Origin: a bacterium
Lineage (GTDB): Bacteria; CSSED10-310; JAJRTK01
NCBI GenBank assembly: GCA_024278345.1
Contig: JAJRTK010000129.1
Span: 1 to 25,467, forward strand
Length of the DNA: 25,467 nt
Direction of reading: 5' to 3'
Each line of letters starts with the position of its first letter. Position 1 is the stretch's first letter. Shown one piece after another: positions 15,515 to 25,070 of this stretch. The notes beneath the pieces were generated by a model that worked only from the letters and a program-made list of their open reading frames with translations, searched no databases and was not told the origin of the DNA. Made by a program: the position numbers and the translations under genes.

Positions 15515-18500
15515 TTACGCTTCTCCGTCGGAATTCGAGCTGTTTTGCTCAAGGAGATCAAGTCGTTTCGCAATTCGGCGTTCCAGGAGCTTGAAGCCCC
15601 TTGTTGCGGCGTCAGTCAGGGTCTTTTCCAGCAATTCTCGGCCACGGACCTCATCTTTCTTGAGCTCCAAGAGTCCGCTCCGCCACCGAATCTCCAGCAG
15701 CAGATCCATGTAGCCGGTGTGCTGGAAGTCTCGGAGAAGGGAGCCGAGAAGTTCTCGCGCTTCCTCTTCGAGCCCTTCCGCTGCCAGGCAGTTCGCCACG
15801 GCGAACTCGACGATGATCTGGTTCCGCTGGTTCCTGCTACCGGACATCAGATCCTGAGCGAACCCGGCGGTGGAGGTGGCCTCGTCGGTCCGGCCACTGG
15901 CTAGAAGGAACTGGGAAAGGACCGCCAATGCCTGAGCCTCATCATCGGTGCGGCTCTGGTCTCGAAATACCGTGATGGCGGCGGAGAGGTGCTTTTCTAT
16001 CCCCTCGAGGCTGCCATCGGCCAGGCCAACCGTAGCAAGAGCAACCTGGCTCTTGGCGACGTTTCGGTCCTCGCCGATTTCTAAGCGTAGATTTAGCGCC
16101 TTTTCGTGTTCGTCACGGGCCAGTTTCGTCTCGCCCATGGCAAGATAGACTTGTCCAAGATTGTAGCGTCCGTAGCCGATGCTCCGCCTGTCGCCGATCC
16201 GGCGGGCGGTTTTCAGGGCTTCCCGCGTAATCTTCAGTGCCCGGGCCAGCTCACCTTGCTCCCGGAATACACGGGACAATGCGTTGAGAGAGATCACCGT
16301 ATTGCCCGGGTTTCCAGTTTTCCGGTCGATCTCGAGCGCCGCCTCGAGCTTGAGCCTGGCTTCCTCAAGATTGCCCTGAAGATGGAGAATCCAGCCGATG
16401 CTCCGAAGAGAGCTGGCGATGCCCTGCTGGTTGCCGATCTTCCGAAAAATCCGTAACGCTTCGGCGTGGAGGCTCCGTGAACCAGCCATGTCTCCCAGCC
16501 TTCGCGTGACCCCCGCCAAATGCCGATAGCAGACCGCCTGGTTTTCCAAGTCTCCCAATTTCCGGAAAATCTCCAGGGCCTCATAGTGCATGTTCTTGGC
16601 TTCAGTGATATCTCCGTGTTGCTCCACGAGGAAGTAGGCCAGCCGGGTGAGAGACTTCGCCACTCCGGACTGGTTCCCGATGGTTCGAAAGATCTCCATG
16701 GCCTCTTGCTGGGTCTTCTTCGCGCCCTTGTGGTCCCCTTGGCGTAAGAGCAGACCTGCGAGCTCTTGCAGGCTCTCCGCCACCCCACTTCGAATTCCGG
16801 CACTCTGGAAAAGCTGGCGGGCGCTTTCCAGTTTTCTCCGGGACAAGTCCAGATCCCCTCGGGCTTCCAGGGCGGCGGCCTCGAGAAGGCGAGCCTCGGC
16901 CACCAGGATCTTTGCGCCAAGTTTCTCCCCTTTTGCAGCCGCCTTTTCCGCTGCCGCTCGTTGCCGGCCTGTGTCCGTCAGCGATTGGGCTATTCTGGCC
17001 TCGGTGAGATCGATCCGGGGATCGCTCGATTCCGGCAGCGGCAAAGAACGGAGCTGAGCCAGTGTATGGAGGGCATTGCGCGGAACGCCGGCGTGGATCT
17101 GAGCCGCAGCCAGCAAAAGCCCGTACTCCAACTGATCCGGGTAGAAGATCCAAAGGGATTGGTAAATTTCCACGGCCTTGGCCCACTGGCCAGCCGTCTC
17201 CCTGTACTGTGCTTCCACCATCATGTTGTCGGCGCGGGAGAGGTTTCCCGCCAGCTCGAACGCCCGCCGGGCCTCGCTTCTGGCTTCCCGGTCGAAGCCC
17301 AGCTTTTGCCAGGCGGCCGCCAACGCGGAGTGGGCCAGGGCATGGTCGGGCTCCAGGGTCACGGCCTCGGAAAGCAGTCTTCGCGCCTCCAGAGCATCGA
17401 ATCTCCGCAAACGTTCCAGACCCTCGGAGTAACGCTTGGCGGCCGCCGGGTTCCGGGGGAGCGTGGCGCGAACAATGTCCACCTCACCGGCGGATAACCT
17501 TCCGATTCCCAGGCTGCTACGGAGCTCACCGCCCAGCCGGCTCACCATGTCGAAGAATTCCGCTTCCGGCCCTACCTTTGCCTGCGACAGAAGCATGGCT
17601 CCCGTCTTGGCATCCTGGAGCCGCAAGTCGAATCGAATCGAAGGTTCTTTTCCCGAGTCCAGAAACAAATAGCTCCCGGAGACAAAATAGTCGGCACCCA
17701 GCCTGTTTCGGAGCCTCGCCATCGTTTCCGTCGAAAGCGCCTGACCTTCCTTCAGATCGAGCTCAAGATTCATCCTCACGATGAGCTCGTTGGGGATGAC
17801 CCGCATCTTTTCTCCCAGCACCAATTCCGTCTCCAGCATCTCCGTGAGGGCCGTGGAAATCCATGCCGCGCCGGGGTCTTCGGATAGGTTCCTGAAGCCC
17901 AGGACCGCCACGAGCTTCCGGGAACCATTGGGAAAAAACCACCGACTCGCCGCCATAAACCCGACGCCCACCACCATCAAGAAGATCAAAACCACTGCGG
18001 CCCAGCGCCAAATGCTTCTTTCAGAGAAAAGAAAACCGGGCTCTTTCTTGCCCTGCAGAGTTTCCACCAATTCCCGAGCACTGGTGAATCGCTTGGCCGG
18101 GTCGCGCTCCAAGCATCGAAGAATCGCTCGCTCCCACCTGGAATCGAGATCAGGAACAAAAAGACGAGGGGCGGGAGGCGGCTGCTTGAGCCGTAGAACC
18201 GCCGTGGCAAGAGCGTTCCCCTTGGAAAAGGGCCGATGCCCCGTCATCATCTCGTACATCACGATGCCCAAGGCATAGATGTCCGAGGCTGGCGTGACGC
18301 GGCTCCCCTCCACCTGTTCCGGGGACATGTAGGCAGGCGTCCCGATGAGTGTTCCCGCGTCGGTGATGGAGTCGCCTTCCGAGTCCTGCGTGGATTCGAT
18401 CCGAGCCAACCCAAAATCGGTGACCACGGCACGTTCCCGACCATTCTCCTCCACGAGCATCACGTTAGAGCTCTTGAAGTCCCGGTGGATCACTCCCACC

Positions 18501-19147
18501 CGGTGCGCCGCTTCCAGGGCTTCGGCCATCTGCTCCAGAAGCGGGAGGGCTTGCGCTGGCTTCATGGGGCTTTCCCGCCGTAGACGGGCCATCAGAGTCT
18601 CGCCGTCCAAGAACTCCATCGTCAAGAAGGTGATCCGCTGGTTGGCATGGGAAGAGCCACGGGCATCCGGCTGGAAGTGATAAGAAAGATCGAAAAGCCG
18701 GCAAACATTCGGATGAGTAACCTTGTGAGCAAGCTGGATCTCACGGCGGAACCGCTCAATGACCCGCCTTTCCTTGGCGATCTCTCCTCGGACGGTCTTG
18801 AGAGCAACCCTGACGGACAGCTCGAGATCCTTGGCCTCGTAGACTTCGCCCACGGCACCCTGGGCTAGAAACCTAACGATCCGATAGCGGCCCGCCACGA
18901 TATCTCCCGGCCCAAAGATCGTCTTCTCCAAAGATCTCGGGCCCTTCTCCTTTTCTCCTGCGTCATGCTCCGTCAGCGTAGAACCCGTATCGGACAGTTT
19001 CGAGGAAAGAATTGGCACTGCCCGCCGGAGTCCCACCGGGGTCTCGGAGCTCGCGAGCTCCGCCTCCTCACGAGGTCCGGGAGCCGTTTCGCTATCGGGA
19101 ACCTCCGGGTTCCCCGGTCTTCCATCTTTCCCGTGGACCGCGGTCAT
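15515..19147 (-). CDS. Transmembrane Ser/Thr protein kinase with TolB-like domain and TPR repeats
   Basis: The 1210-residue protein has a cytoplasmic eukaryotic-type kinase domain (about 88-365): loop LAQGAVGEVY with Ala in place of the first Gly (A95), VALK Lys117, HRDFKSSN (221-228, catalytic D223), DFG (D244) and TPAYMSPEQ. A membrane segment (about 379-401) follows. Next comes a TolB/FlgO-like region (about 409-548, with AVLGFRNLS and LGADYFVSGSYL), then TPRs; from about 783 to 1062 these form tight 40-residue repeats of the MalT/LGN type. The catalytic residues suggest an active kinase whose extracytoplasmic part senses or binds partners. An in-frame ATG exists at 19321, inside the preceding gene; the ATG at 19147 is chosen because AGGAG lies seven bases upstream and it clears the preceding stop by 16 bp. 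Confidence 0.93.
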   Translation of the reverse strand: MTAVHGKDGRPGNPEVPDSETAPGPREEAELASSETPVGLRRAVPILSSKLSDTGSTLTEHDAGEKEKGPRSLEKTIFGPGDIVAGRYRIVRFLAQGAVGEVYEAKDLELSVRVALKTVRGEIAKERRVIERFRREIQLAHKVTHPNVCRLFDLSYHFQPDARGSSHANQRITFLTMEFLDGETLMARLRRESPMKPAQALPLLEQMAEALEAAHRVGVIHRDFKSSNVMLVEENGRERAVVTDFGLARIESTQDSEGDSITDAGTLIGTPAYMSPEQVEGSRVTPASDIYALGIVMYEMMTGHRPFSKGNALATAVLRLKQPPPAPRLFVPDLDSRWERAILRCLERDPAKRFTSARELVETLQGKKEPGFLFSERSIWRWAAVVLIFLMVVGVGFMAASRWFFPNGSRKLVAVLGFRNLSEDPGAAWISTALTEMLETELVLGEKMRVIPNELIVRMNLELDLKEGQALSTETMARLRNRLGADYFVSGSYLFLDSGKEPSIRFDLRLQDAKTGAMLLSQAKVGPEAEFFDMVSRLGGELRSSLGIGRLSAGEVDIVRATLPRNPAAAKRYSEGLERLRRFDALEARRLLSEAVTLEPDHALAHSALAAAWQKLGFDREARSEARRAFELAGNLSRADNMMVEAQYRETAGQWAKAVEIYQSLWIFYPDQLEYGLLLAAAQIHAGVPRNALHTLAQLRSLPLPESSDPRIDLTEARIAQSLTDTGRQRAAAEKAAAKGEKLGAKILVAEARLLEAAALEARGDLDLSRRKLESARQLFQSAGIRSGVAESLQELAGLLLRQGDHKGAKKTQQEAMEIFRTIGNQSGVAKSLTRLAYFLVEQHGDITEAKNMHYEALEIFRKLGDLENQAVCYRHLAGVTRRLGDMAGSRSLHAEALRIFRKIGNQQGIASSLRSIGWILHLQGNLEEARLKLEAALEIDRKTGNPGNTVISLNALSRVFREQGELARALKITREALKTARRIGDRRSIGYGRYNLGQVYLAMGETKLARDEHEKALNLRLEIGEDRNVAKSQVALATVGLADGSLEGIEKHLSAAITVFRDQSRTDDEAQALAVLSQFLLASGRTDEATSTAGFAQDLMSGSRNQRNQIIVEFAVANCLAAEGLEEEARELLGSLLRDFQHTGYMDLLLEIRWRSGLLELKKDEVRGRELLEKTLTDAATRGFKLLERRIAKRLDLLEQNSSNSDGEA
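15962..16801 (-). repeat. About seven tandem 40-residue TPR coding repeats
   Basis: Within the kinase gene, residues about 783-1062 repeat with a 40-residue (120-bp) period. The consensus resembles EALxIFRKIGN followed by a short variable stretch, then SLxxLAxxLxxQGD and xxAK. Copies differ, so this is an old protein repeat rather than a recent DNA duplication. The longer 40-residue period, against the canonical 34, is typical of MalT/LGN-type TPR arrays. Confidence 0.7.
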
Positions 19148-19163: not shown

Positions 19164-21794
19164 TCAGAATGTCGTACCGCTGGCGATGTAGAAGGAGGTC
19201 CCTTCATCCGTCTGGACCACCGACAACCCGAATCGGGCCGATTGCTCCAGGACGTTGACGAAAAAACCACCACCAACGGCAGGATGCCATTCCTTCGAAG
19301 ATTCGCCATCCAGAAAAACACGGCCGAGGTCGCCCAGCGCCATCACTCCCCATTGACCCGGCACCAGGAAGGTGAATCGGCCCACAAGAAAACTGAGCTC
19401 CAACGAACCTGATACCGACGCCTCTCCCGCGAACCGGTTGAGCAGATACCCTCGAAGAGTCTCCGAACCTCCCAGGTACGCGGCGCCGTGGTAGGGAAAG
19501 TTTCCCAACACCTTCTCCCCACTGACCCGGATCCCCATTCCAGCACGGCTGGAAAAGTCTACCCGCGTCGCCCAACGCGCTCCCACCGATCCGTAAGAGC
19601 TTCTGACATCCCATAGACCGGGAACCCAGACTCCTTGAGCTTCCAATTGGCTTCTCAGGCCCCGGACGTCACCGGGATTCCCGGAAGCCAGCTTGAAACC
19701 ACCGCGTAAGCCAAGCTGCCCAAACCGCTCTTTCGCGCCGTAAGGCAGTGTTCCACCTAACAGCGTTCCAGCGTCGATGTCCAGAAACGAGATCTGGAGC
19801 TCGGGACCCACAAAAAGGTCGAACCACTTTTTCGCCTCGTAGTGGATCTCCGGCACCACGCGGATCGTTCGCTTTTCCAGCTCGTAGAACTCATCCGGCA
19901 TCTCCCGAGATGTCTCGTTGCCGAACCCATAAAAATTCAGGTTGTCGAATCCAGACCACCCGGCTTCCAGCGTTGAGAAAATCCTGGAATTCCGCCGACG
20001 GTATTCTCCCCGGTAACTGCCTGCCGACCTCATGACACCAAAGGCGAATCCAGCCCGTACCACGTGCCGGAAAGCATAGGGGTTCTTCCGGAATCCATAG
20101 TTGGTCCAGGTAGCTCCGCCCCCCAGAACAGGCCCACCGTCCGGAGAAAACCCGATCCACAAGAGCGGTTGTCGCCGCTGCCCCCAATCCCTTGGAAATG
20201 CCCAGGGCTGCGTCGGATCGGGCAAGGGGTTCTCGTAAGGCTCCGGCCCAACCCTGACTTTCCCCTTGCCGGCCACCAGGTTTGAGCCCTGGCTATCGAA
20301 AAAGCGAATTTCGCTTCCCTCTGTGACGCGGATCTCATCGTCGCCTTCACCGCCCACGACGAAGATACGGATCTTTGTCTCGCCTTCCGCCACGAATTCG
20401 TCGGCTCCACCGTGAAGATAGATCCGCACCTCCCGCGTCTCCGGGTAGTGGAACGTCCGGCGGAAATAGACCTTCCGGATGAATTCCCCCCCCTCAGCCC
20501 GGGCCACTGAAAGCTCGAAGCCTCCATCCCCAAGGCTCCGGATTTCGGCGCGATCATTTTGGTCGGTACAGTGAACATCCACCTCCGCCGCCAGATGGTG
20601 GTAGAATCTATCAACGACCTCGAAAAGCCCGGCCCGCCGTTTTTTCAAAAGCTGGGCCAGCCCAGTTCCATTTTTTTCGTAGAGCTCTTTTGGCATTCGC
20701 CGGACAGCCGACTCGATGACGTCGTCAGTCAGTCGCCTCTCCACTTCCTGGGCTAGGTCGTCCCAGTCCGATTTCTCCAAACTGGTGAGAAGTAACCGGT
20801 CCACTTGCCACCCGTTGGTCGTGGGTCCCTCGATATTGGGGTAGTGATCCCGGAAGACTAGAAGTTTTGGCTGGTAGAAGCGGACAAGGAACATCAGGGC
20901 GCCCTCGTAATTGGCGAAAGCCTGGTCCCGATCCTCGGGGATCGGCTGCCATCCCACCCGATCAGGAAACTTTGCCCACCGCCACTGCTTCCGGTGGCGA
21001 TCCCAGTCACCCAGGAAAAGATCAAGGATCCGCGCCCGCAGGAAGGCCCGGGCATCGACCCGTTCGTTTCCCCCATCCAAAAGCCTCTTCCAAAGCTTAG
21101 ACGTACTGATGATCTCCGTCGCGCCATGGAAGCCGGGATTCGTTTCCGACACGGCGCCAGGATACTCTTCCAATGTCCCAACCCGCCCAGCGAAATCTTC
21201 TCTGAATTGGCCCAGAGAAGGATCGTCGGGCATGACCACCAACCTTGGAGTCAGGTGCAGCACCCCCACGGCCTCCGCCAGGGTAGGCACCATGAGAGGA
21301 CCGGCGGGATGCGCCCCGGCAAGCTGATCCTGCACGAGCCGGCCCGCCAATGTGGCTCGAAGTTCCGCCGGCAAAACTTCGGTCAGGTTCTTGACGATGC
21401 TCCGGAACGTGTAGTCCCGGCCATCGGCTCCCCGCATCGCCAGCCCTGGCGTCTGCATTCCGCCCACCCGGAAACGAGGCGTCAATCCCCCGGCCACCTT
21501 TCCAAGGTCCAGAACCTCCACTTCCATGGGAGTCGTCCAGAGATCCCGGTAGTCCCTTCCGAACATCCAACGATGGAATGAACCCGCTTTGAGATGAGCC
21601 GCCGGCGTCACGACGCGCCTCTCCACCTGACTCATGACTTTGCCGGGATCCAAATCCTCAGCCCGGGGAGAACCCGCACTTCCCGCTATCCCAAAAACGA
21701 AAACCAGACCGGCTAACCATAAACTCTTCCACCGGTTCACCCCCGAGCTCAACCGGCAAGACCACGGTCGTGTCTCCCTCCACATCAACATCAT
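19164..21794 (-). CDS. Fusion of an atypical kinase-like domain with a BamA/D15-type outer-membrane barrel
   Basis: The 876-residue protein has a signal peptide (about 22-45). Residues about 100-345 resemble HipA/Fam20-like atypical kinases: GRDYTFRSIVKN (125-136) as a possible beta-3 lysine strand (Lys135), VVMPDDPSLG (186-195) as hinge, GDWDRHRKQWRW (262-273) as catalytic-loop candidate (D265) and PIPEDRDQAF (284-293) as metal-site candidate. A strand-rich RTX-like linker (about 455-505, GGEGDDEI) follows. The C-terminus (about 540-876) is an Omp85-type barrel with FYGFGNETS, the loop-6 motif LRGY (780-783) and a terminal Phe. I recall similar motifs in Bacteroidetes barrel proteins preceded by a metallophosphoesterase; no phosphoesterase is present here. 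Kinase activity is inference. The start at 21794 has GGAAGG seven bases upstream. It is followed 16 bp later by the Ser/Thr kinase. Confidence 0.82.
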   Translation of the reverse strand: MMLMWRETRPWSCRLSSGVNRWKSLWLAGLVFVFGIAGSAGSPRAEDLDPGKVMSQVERRVVTPAAHLKAGSFHRWMFGRDYRDLWTTPMEVEVLDLGKVAGGLTPRFRVGGMQTPGLAMRGADGRDYTFRSIVKNLTEVLPAELRATLAGRLVQDQLAGAHPAGPLMVPTLAEAVGVLHLTPRLVVMPDDPSLGQFREDFAGRVGTLEEYPGAVSETNPGFHGATEIISTSKLWKRLLDGGNERVDARAFLRARILDLFLGDWDRHRKQWRWAKFPDRVGWQPIPEDRDQAFANYEGALMFLVRFYQPKLLVFRDHYPNIEGPTTNGWQVDRLLLTSLEKSDWDDLAQEVERRLTDDVIESAVRRMPKELYEKNGTGLAQLLKKRRAGLFEVVDRFYHHLAAEVDVHCTDQNDRAEIRSLGDGGFELSVARAEGGEFIRKVYFRRTFHYPETREVRIYLHGGADEFVAEGETKIRIFVVGGEGDDEIRVTEGSEIRFFDSQGSNLVAGKGKVRVGPEPYENPLPDPTQPWAFPRDWGQRRQPLLWIGFSPDGGPVLGGGATWTNYGFRKNPYAFRHVVRAGFAFGVMRSAGSYRGEYRRRNSRIFSTLEAGWSGFDNLNFYGFGNETSREMPDEFYELEKRTIRVVPEIHYEAKKWFDLFVGPELQISFLDIDAGTLLGGTLPYGAKERFGQLGLRGGFKLASGNPGDVRGLRSQLEAQGVWVPGLWDVRSSYGSVGARWATRVDFSSRAGMGIRVSGEKVLGNFPYHGAAYLGGSETLRGYLLNRFAGEASVSGSLELSFLVGRFTFLVPGQWGVMALGDLGRVFLDGESSKEWHPAVGGGFFVNVLEQSARFGLSVVQTDEGTSFYIASGTTF

Positions 21795-21958: not shown

Positions 21959-23020
21959 ATGAACACCCGACTTTGGCGAATGTTGCCCGCCTTTCTTTTG
22001 CTGGCTCTTTTCTTCCCCGCTTCCGCACCTGCCGTACATTTTCACGACTCGTGGCTCGACCGGCCCCTCCAAACTTCGGCGAATTCCTTTCTCGGCATCC
22101 TTGACCAACCCCAGGTCAATGACGCTTCTCCCACTTCTTTCAAGCAACTACCTAGCCCCCAAAAACCCAACTTGGGCCTCCGTTACGACCTCAAATGGGA
22201 CCTGCCCGTCACACTCGGCGGCCTGGCCCTCTGGTTCACCCTCGAGGTCACCGATTCCCTGGCGCCCGCGAACTGCCGGTGGTGCGATAGCGATGCCCAA
22301 GGAAACAACTCCCTCAACGGCCTCGACAATTCGCTCAGAAATTCTCTTCTGTGGGACAACCCCAAGAGGGCACAAAGTTTCAGCGACCTGCTCTTCCTGG
22401 GAATCGCCCCCTTGACAGCCTTTGGCCTGAATGCCGCCGCCGCCGCTCACGACGGAAGCTTCGACCTCAACCGCCAATGGATGGTGGAGTCTATGATCAT
22501 TCTCGAAGCCGCGGCCATGACAGCCAACTTTACCCGCCTCCTCAAATTTGCCTTTGCTCGAGAACGACCCGCTGTCCACTTCGGGACCCAAGACGGCCTG
22601 AACGTCCCCGATGCAAGCCGGAACACTTCTTTCTTCTCCGGCCATGCCAGCATGACCTTTTCCCTGGCCGCCGCCGGTGGCACCATCGCCTCCATGCGCG
22701 GATACCGTTGGGCACCCCTGGTTTGGGCCGGCGGCATGACCATCGCGGCGACCACGGGATACCTGCGCATCGCCGGTGACCGGCACTACTTCACCGATGT
22801 CCTGGCAGGAGCTATCGTGGGATCGGCCGTCGGCTTTGCCGTACCCTATTTCTTTCACCGGCCCCGTAAAAAAACTCCCGGAAACCGCTTCTCCAAAGCT
22901 CTGCCCTTCGACGGCGATGCTTCTCTCCAGCTTCCTCAAGGAGCCAGTCCACAAAAGCTCACCATCGATCTCTTTCCTCTCCAAGGCGGCGGATACGTGG
23001 GCTTTCGCTGGCGGCGCTAA
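21959..23020 (+). CDS. PAP2-superfamily phosphatase, secreted or membrane-anchored
   Basis: The 353-residue protein has an N-terminal signal sequence (about 8-25). All three lipid-phosphatase motifs are intact: K196-x6-R203P204 (KFAFARERP), S227G228H229 (FFSGHAS) and R270-x5-H276-x3-D280 (RIAGDRHYFTD). H229 and H276 are the expected nucleophile and acid/base. Hydrophobic helices at about 84-100, 143-163, 176-195, 232-244, 252-270 and 281-298 support a membrane protein, followed by a hydrophilic tail of about 50 residues. Likely substrates are undecaprenyl pyrophosphate, phosphatidylglycerophosphate or lipid A phosphates; sequence alone cannot choose. The start is the ATG at 21959, with AAGGA nine bases upstream; an open in-frame extension to 21770 crosses the divergent promoter region and looks non-coding. 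Confidence 0.92.
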   Translation: MNTRLWRMLPAFLLLALFFPASAPAVHFHDSWLDRPLQTSANSFLGILDQPQVNDASPTSFKQLPSPQKPNLGLRYDLKWDLPVTLGGLALWFTLEVTDSLAPANCRWCDSDAQGNNSLNGLDNSLRNSLLWDNPKRAQSFSDLLFLGIAPLTAFGLNAAAAAHDGSFDLNRQWMVESMIILEAAAMTANFTRLLKFAFARERPAVHFGTQDGLNVPDASRNTSFFSGHASMTFSLAAAGGTIASMRGYRWAPLVWAGGMTIAATTGYLRIAGDRHYFTDVLAGAIVGSAVGFAVPYFFHRPRKKTPGNRFSKALPFDGDASLQLPQGASPQKLTIDLFPLQGGGYVGFRWRR

Positions 23021-23671: not shown

Positions 23672-23867
23672 TCCCTGCCACACCATCTTGTGAGTTCCGG
23701 CGATGATCTCCCACCTCGGGGATCTTTCGGCGGTGGGCCGCCTTCAGGGCAAAATATCCCAAAAGCGCTTTCCTTTTCCTGGTTGCGTTCCGCTCCCGTC
23801 AGCGGCCATCCGGCCGCCGACACTCGCCCCTTTTCTCCACGAATCGGCCTCCCTCCCAAGGAAGACG

Positions 23868-25070
23868 TTGCCCCATTCCCCCAATAACCGCGATCCCTTC
23901 CTCCCCCACAAGCATCCAGCGCCGCACCACTGGTGGCTCCCATTTGCTTCTCTTGGCCGCAAGGGCCAAGGGCCGCTCTCTCTTCGTTTTCACGCCTACT
24001 GGATCGGCCTCGCCCTTTGCCTTGTGACAACGGCCACCCCTCTCCGGGCCGAGGTCGAAAGCCAGATCCGCGGGGAAATCCGAAGCCGCCTCGCACTCTT
24101 TTCACCCATCCACGGCGACAACTGGGCGCTGGAACTCCGGGCCCGGCCCGAGCTCGTCGTCTTCCTTACCCAGGATCTCTCCGCGACGGTCACCGTCCGG
24201 GGCCAAAGAAATCTGGGCCGCGGAGCGGATCTCCTGGGCGACGGCGATTTTACCCTGGATCGCGCCTTTATTGATCTCCGCCTTGGCCAATGGGACCTTC
24301 GCCTGGGCCGACAGTCCGTCAACTTCGGCTCGGCTCTTATATGGAATCCCATCGACCTCGTGGACTCCAATATCCCCCTGGACTTTGACATCGTCAAAAA
24401 CGGCGTCGATGCGATCCGCGCATCCTACTCCCTTTCATCGACAGCCAGTTTGACCGGCCTGATGGCCTTCCCGGAGGACTCGGTCCTCTCCATGATCAAG
24501 GCGGATCTCTTGCTGGGAAGTGCCGATATCTCCCTGCTCGCCGTCGATGATCGAGTAGCCGGCGCCTGGGTCTTGGGGCTGGATCTCAAGGGGGATCTCG
24601 GGGTCGGCTATTGGTTGGAGGGCGCGGCCCATTTCCCGGAAAAAGGCGCCGCTTACCAGGACTTCGTCGTGGGACTTGACTACTCCTGGCCTCTCTTCGA
24701 CCGGCTCTACCTGGCTCTCCAGTTCCACCGCGACGGCTCTGGCGGCACCGGAGTCGATAATTACGACTACGGTGGCCTCATCACCGGTCGAAAGGGATTT
24801 CTTGCCAGGGACTACGCCTCCATCCTCTCCAGCTTGGTGATCAAGGAAATCAATACCCTGAACGGCAGCCTCATCTACAATCTCGACGACGACAGCTACA
24901 TCACCACCCTTAGCGGGAGCCGCTACTTCTTCGAGAACCTCCTCGCGTCGGTCAGAGTCAGCCTCTTCCGAGGCTCGGGACCCGGAGAGTTCAACCCCGT
25001 GGAGGGTCACCCTCTGGAAGGGCTCCAGCCCACAGAAAGCTACGAGCTTTGGCTGGAGTGGCGATTCTAG
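23868..25070 (+). CDS. Porin-like outer-membrane beta-barrel protein
   Basis: The protein has about 400 residues. A signal-peptide core (FHAYWIGLALCLVTTATPLRA) is followed by a predicted mature start near EVESQIRGE (about 24050). The rest is alternating amphipathic strands: LRLGRQSVNFGSALIWNPIDLVD resembles the strand-turn motif of porin-like barrels in which a GRQ strand precedes a WNPxD loop, and the protein ends in WLEWRF with a terminal aromatic residue. The transported substrate is unknown. The start is uncertain. The only in-frame ATG (23703) gives a long Pro-rich leader with no ribosome site, whereas the TTG at 23868 has AAGGA (23858-23862) five bases upstream. Even so, the n-region is about 45 residues, unusually long. 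The 196 bp after the Rrf2 gene shows no other gene. Confidence 0.78.
   Translation: MPHSPNNRDPFLPHKHPAPHHWWLPFASLGRKGQGPLSLRFHAYWIGLALCLVTTATPLRAEVESQIRGEIRSRLALFSPIHGDNWALELRARPELVVFLTQDLSATVTVRGQRNLGRGADLLGDGDFTLDRAFIDLRLGQWDLRLGRQSVNFGSALIWNPIDLVDSNIPLDFDIVKNGVDAIRASYSLSSTASLTGLMAFPEDSVLSMIKADLLLGSADISLLAVDDRVAGAWVLGLDLKGDLGVGYWLEGAAHFPEKGAAYQDFVVGLDYSWPLFDRLYLALQFHRDGSGGTGVDNYDYGGLITGRKGFLARDYASILSSLVIKEINTLNGSLIYNLDDDSYITTLSGSRYFFENLLASVRVSLFRGSGPGEFNPVEGHPLEGLQPTESYELWLEWRF

Follow-up and report, generated by a model that had tools for sequence, protein, structure and literature searches.

What does a kinase-like domain do when it is joined, in one exported polypeptide, to an outer-membrane barrel of the Omp85 type? 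This question is raised by a gene in a window of 25,467 nucleotides (the whole stretch of contig JAJRTK010000129.1 that was analysed), present as a single copy in the genome of the window. Our preferred reading, with a rough probability of 55% for the whole, is that an Omp85-superfamily barrel would here carry, on its periplasmic face and in place of POTRA domains, a protein-kinase-like (PKL) domain, akin to HipA, HipA_2 and CotH, that acts as an envelope phosphotransferase. The features concerned are the following:

19164-21794, minus strand: Omp85-barrel gene, ATG start, 876 aa, laid out as signal peptide, HipA/CotH-like kinase domain, beta-strand linker and Omp85-type barrel
21660-21794, minus strand: putative signal peptide region, residues 1-45, hydrophobic from residue 24, then AGSAGSPRA-ED (by eye)
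20559-21620, minus strand: kinase-like domain, residues 59-412 (domain alignments; profile matches to CotH, HipA, HipA_2 and CtkA)
21387-21407, minus strand: FRSIVKN, residues 130-136, with N-lobe-type R131 and K135
20982-21011, minus strand: GDWDRHRKQW, residues 262-271, catalytic-loop-like, aligned to GN.D.H.KN of HipA and GNFDRHNGNW of CtkA
20925-20933, minus strand: DRD, residues 288-290, DFG/DxD-like metal-binding motif, aligned to PWD.D.SF of CotH
20160-20558, minus strand: beta-strand-rich linker, residues 413-545 (AF2 strands, of moderate confidence in the linker only; motif count)
19167-20159, minus strand: Omp85-type outer-membrane barrel, residues 546-876 (Omp85_fam match; homologues pass the Pfam Omp85 cut-off)
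19446-19457, minus strand: LRGY, residues 780-783, loop-6-type motif of Omp85 barrels (direct reading)
15515-19147, minus strand: Ser/Thr protein kinase with TPRs (Pfam Pkinase, 2.9e-46, and TPR), downstream of the Omp85-barrel gene
21959-23020, plus strand: divergent PAP2-family phosphatase gene (Pfam PAP2, 2.5e-17)

The C-terminal part of the protein was assigned to the barrel of the Omp85 superfamily from profile matches: the NCBIfam model Omp85_fam aligned to residues 772-876 (E-value 5e-9, under its curated cut-off), homologues scored 44-50 bits against Pfam Omp85 (PF01103), above the cut-off of 24, and LRGY conforms to the (V/L)RG(F/Y) pattern of loop 6 in the superfamily. These matches bear out the BamA-type barrel with LRGY proposed in a first-pass annotation of the locus. 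The Pfam scan of the window protein returned no family at E<=1 and detected neither POTRA nor phosphoesterase, in line with the absence of POTRA noted in the same annotation, and a PDB search with the protein as a single sequence gave no match. At least one POTRA domain is typical of the Omp85 superfamily, if not universal; the region preceding the barrel was strand-rich and without POTRA-type helices in an AF2 model (moderate confidence). The earlier description of this region as RTX-like proved weak, since the linker holds a single strict nonapeptide-type RTX turn (GGEGDDEI at 481) and no tandem repeats, which rules out an RTX repeat array. The N-terminus, read by eye without a dedicated predictor, is likely a signal peptide as first annotated, its hydrophobic stretch ending in SPRA-ED. 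An exported location is indicated by this signal peptide and by a lipobox in several relatives, and we infer that the kinase-like domain faces the periplasm because it lies N-terminal to the barrel, following the established topology of Omp85 proteins.

The kinase-like reading of residues 59-412 is supported by sequence profiles and not by structure. When 51 family members were scanned against Pfam, CotH was the commonest match (5 members, best E-value 0.0031), and HipA_2 and HipA_C were found once each among 18 weakly matching families. Two CotH matches inspected individually both span the catalytic-loop region, with 13.2-15.4 bits against the curated cut-off of 23.8 for PF08757, so the family does not belong to CotH by cut-off on the scores seen, and the window protein itself had no CotH match; scores for HipA_C (PF07804) were likewise below the curated cut-off (one member at E-value 0.12, the window protein with no match). 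Comparison with hhalign gave scores of 46 for HipA, 35 for CotH and 31 for HipA_2 with a 15-row domain profile, and of 34, 30 and 30 with a 51-row profile. The HipA and CotH alignments fall on the GDWDRH loop, that of CotH also on the DRD motif (PIPEDRDQAF in the family), and that of HipA_2 on the C-terminal helices, elsewhere in the domain. In a PDB search with the 51-row profile, CtkA (3akj) ranked first of all PDB sequences (E-value 0.073, at DTLLGNFDRHNGNW). Each single match is weak, most centre on the catalytic loop, and the N-lobe has no independent match. The aligned positions of the PKL catalytic-loop Asp (D265), the Mg-binding Asn (occupied by Q270) and the DFG/DxD Asp (D288/D290) are in register with HipA, CotH and CtkA, and we judge it very probable that the domain belongs to the PKL superfamily. 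The kinase reading first given, HipA/Fam20-like, is thus partly supported, the HipA/CotH-type component being backed by controlled profile comparisons and by conservation of catalytic-type residues. The closest relations are with HipA, HipA_2 and CtkA (PF07804, PF20613 and PDB 3akj), for which hhalign and the profile search of the PDB concur on a catalytic loop G(D/N).DRH..(Q/N)W; these proteins are cytoplasmic, whereas the family described here is exported to the envelope, has mostly Gln in place of Asn, has no HipB partner among the loci seen and stays below the Pfam cut-offs. We are aware of no fusion between CotH and an Omp85 barrel.

Conservation was counted in an alignment of the kinase-like domain from 51 diverse family members. 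The three motifs lie at the residues originally given for them, and their columns, invariant or near-invariant in the homologues, set them beyond chance: R131 and K135 are each found in 50/51 members, D156 in 51/51, D265 in 46/51, H267 in 47/51, W271 in 51/51, D288 in 51/51 and D290 in 50/51, and position 270 is Gln in 48/51 and Asn in the remaining 3. K135, D156, D265, Q/N270, D288 and D290 are thus kept in 90-100% of members, and the putative catalytic residues are intact in the window protein. This pattern bears on a somewhat unlikely alternative, a PKL-fold pseudokinase or ligand-binding sensor that would bind a phosphorylated envelope ligand and, without transferring phosphate, control the action of the Omp85 barrel (insertion, export or movement of lipids). 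Such a sensor would fit with a periplasm that, to our knowledge, is not known to hold ATP, with the Gln found at the Mg-binding position of most members, which also counts against an active kinase, and with the loss of the catalytic Asp in some paralogues (GDWSRR, ADFGKH, GDWNKT). However, with D265 kept in 46/51 divergent members and each of K135, D288 and D290 in 50/51 or more, the pattern is that of an active site and not of a plain binding site, and catalytic loss is limited to a few lineages and paralogues. On balance, we lean towards an active enzyme. Because active-site-type residues are conserved, the domain is predicted to phosphorylate a component of the envelope, which could be a protein, a lipid or a glycan.

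Two further observations concern degenerate copies. Tandem or divergent clusters of barrel-less domain copies (L113:7126-12151 and L114:7433-10778) each contain one copy with GDWSRR, and this absence of the catalytic Asp from one copy per cluster suggests active/inactive pairs of the domain. In Hymenobacter-type proteins (L007:6774-10529 and L136:6141-9887), degeneration affects the phosphatase motifs as well as the kinase-like one (ADFGKHEDNW) within a single polypeptide; since this looks like a single lineage, it was counted as one event.

The Omp85 protein with a kinase-like module is a member of a large family and not a curiosity of the window genome. The product of the window gene is 44% identical over residues 26-876 to a protein from an Acidobacteria MAG, whose genome has four matching places, and 19/297 genomes of that phylum matched the window protein as query, several in the barrel only. 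Homologues are also held by Bacteroidota plasmids (Persicobacter, Hymenobacter, Parabacteroides), where they are called hypothetical protein if annotated. Scans of viral contigs yielded no usable homologue. With the 15-row domain profile, matches were obtained in 6/386 broadly drawn genomes and in 111/296 genomes of one phylum (that of genome G637), taken to be Bacteroidota from the plasmid matches. None of seven other genomes from the window's own phylum matched this profile, and presence there is therefore patchy. Four architectures were found: domain and barrel, as in the window protein (about 850-960 aa); phosphoesterase, domain and barrel (about 1200-1340 aa); barrel-less domain (about 420-570 aa, with a lipobox in several); and, at L119 and L120, adjacent separate genes for a kinase-like lipoprotein, a PF00149 lipoprotein and an Omp85 barrel, spaced by -4 to 13 bp. 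No Pfam model covers the kinase-like middle domain, the barrel-less copies tested had no NCBIfam match, and the domain family is apparently undescribed so far; in a literature search whose coverage left out most subscription papers, no paper linking Omp85 to a kinase domain was found.

A phosphoesterase is fused to the kinase-like domain or encoded beside it at 21/45 loci examined. The absence of a phosphoesterase had been annotated correctly for the window gene, but is misleading for the family. Nearly all fused members carry GDxG, GDNxY, GNH(D/E) and GHxH, which we take to be the purple acid phosphatase pattern, and relatives of the window gene (Persicobacter P0004, L137 and others) combine N-terminal PF00149, the calcineurin-like phosphoesterase family, with C-terminal PF01103. 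This combination resembles the 'Metallo' class of Omp85 proteins, which carries PF00149, termed a metalloprotease there, and which is described alongside a 'noNterm' class with similar barrels (Heinz and Lithgow, 2014; PMC4104836); the available portion of that article makes no mention of a kinase-like middle domain in the 'Metallo' class. By domain content, as distinct from the sequences of that study, the class probably corresponds to the fused phosphoesterase form described here; the window protein differs in having no N-terminal PF00149. The novelty lies in an Omp85 protein that carries a so far undescribed kinase-like module, the 'Metallo' class with PF00149 being known already.

In the preferred reading, the purple-acid-type phosphatase present in the same polypeptide or operon in many relatives would oppose phosphotransfer, and phosphate would probably be both attached and taken off at the outer membrane by the kinase-like/phosphatase unit, the barrel serving as an anchor or a gate. 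The modules, how they are conserved and that they recur together are established by the sequences, whereas the PKL fold, the orientation, catalysis, substrate and donor are deduced. Counting against such a unit, a phosphatase domain is missing from the window protein, and the PAP2 gene divergent from it belongs to a family that is not enriched at these loci (5/45 versus 1/20 control stretches, p 0.39), which rules out PAP2 as a conserved partner. The broadest form of the proposal, that widespread periplasmic kinases tethered to the outer membrane work against a fused purple-acid-type phosphatase and use a non-ATP donor (polyphosphate, or a lipid or sugar phosphate) for reversible phosphorylation of the outer membrane or the Omp85 barrel, is in our view doubtful. 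If the domain is active, kinase chemistry would take place at the outer membrane, in a compartment without known ATP, and a kinase/phosphatase pair would sit on an Omp85 barrel in more than one third of the sampled genomes of a major phylum. The 'Metallo' class would also gain a function, its N-terminal domain having been interpreted in 2014 as a protease, and the phosphate donor would become a directly testable question.

Gene neighbourhoods were compared between 45 family loci and 20 control stretches from the same genomes (Fisher p, which overstates independence since the loci are related). HD-PycTM was found at 18/45 family loci versus 1/20 controls (p 0.003), and the following had no occurrence in the 20 controls: SdiA-regulated lipoprotein (17/45, p 0.0006), PPK1 (12/45, p 0.007), adenylate-cyclase-type genes (8/45, p 0.04), SixA (5/45, p 0.15) and PPX (2/45). 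These counts, all but that of the adenylate-cyclase-type genes, speak for a more specific version of the preferred reading, compatible with it and in our estimate unlikely, in which the kinase-like domain uses or makes polyphosphate in envelope phosphate metabolism, next to PPK1, SixA and PPX relatives, and the fused phosphatase cleaves phosphate. The genome of the window (88% complete) yielded no PPK1, however, and none lies beside the Acidobacteria-type loci examined; the conserved Bacteroidota neighbourhoods could partly reflect shared ancestry of gene order. The concern raised early on that an unusual phosphate donor would be needed stands; polyphosphate is at most a lead, drawn from neighbourhoods in Bacteroidota and not transferable to the window organism, for which a PPK1-derived donor is unsupported. 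The HD proteins of the 18 loci (L126:4052-5281 and relatives) are HD phosphohydrolases fused to a PycTM (Pycsar effector) domain, often with cyclase-like genes, and at five loci (L146:3313-5718 and 4 others) a protein of about 800 aa without Pfam match lies close to the family gene.

Convergence, with GDWDRH...DRD as a metal site or structural feature of an unrelated fold, appears quite unlikely. It draws on sequence matches that are under curated cut-offs and mostly short, and on low-confidence AF2 models (two-row alignment; pLDDT 43.5 for residues 46-545 and 39.2 for residues 59-412), Foldseek on the first of which returned noise. Against it, nine unrelated profiles taken from the same loci scored 11-20 (maximum 20.1), below all three atypical-kinase profiles, and none of 120 column shuffles reached the observed score of HipA or CotH, the two tested in this way (shuffle maximum 24.5). 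The matches moreover keep the register of both motifs and in part involve the separate C-terminal region, and CtkA heads the PDB profile search. A reading in which the barrel exports the N-terminal domain as a passenger to the cell exterior, the model originally put forward for PlpD, a patatin-like Omp85 protein, is very unlikely. PlpD also has an enzyme-like domain ahead of its barrel (PMC4104836), but the kinase-like domain occurs in barrel-less lipoproteins and in a gene of its own next to one for a free-standing barrel and so need not be a passenger, and no evidence of a cleavage site was seen. PlpD further differs in having POTRA and a lipase, where the window protein has no POTRA and a kinase-like domain.

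In the window, the Ser/Thr kinase gene starts with an ATG 16 nt past the stop of the Omp85-barrel gene, preceded by GGAGAA, and its product has an apparent transmembrane stretch; the two genes may be co-transcribed as an operon. Adjoining the PAP2 gene, positions 23703-25070 (plus strand) encode a protein of 455 aa that weakly matches the Wzi, DUF1302 and phosphate-porin families and is possibly another outer-membrane barrel.
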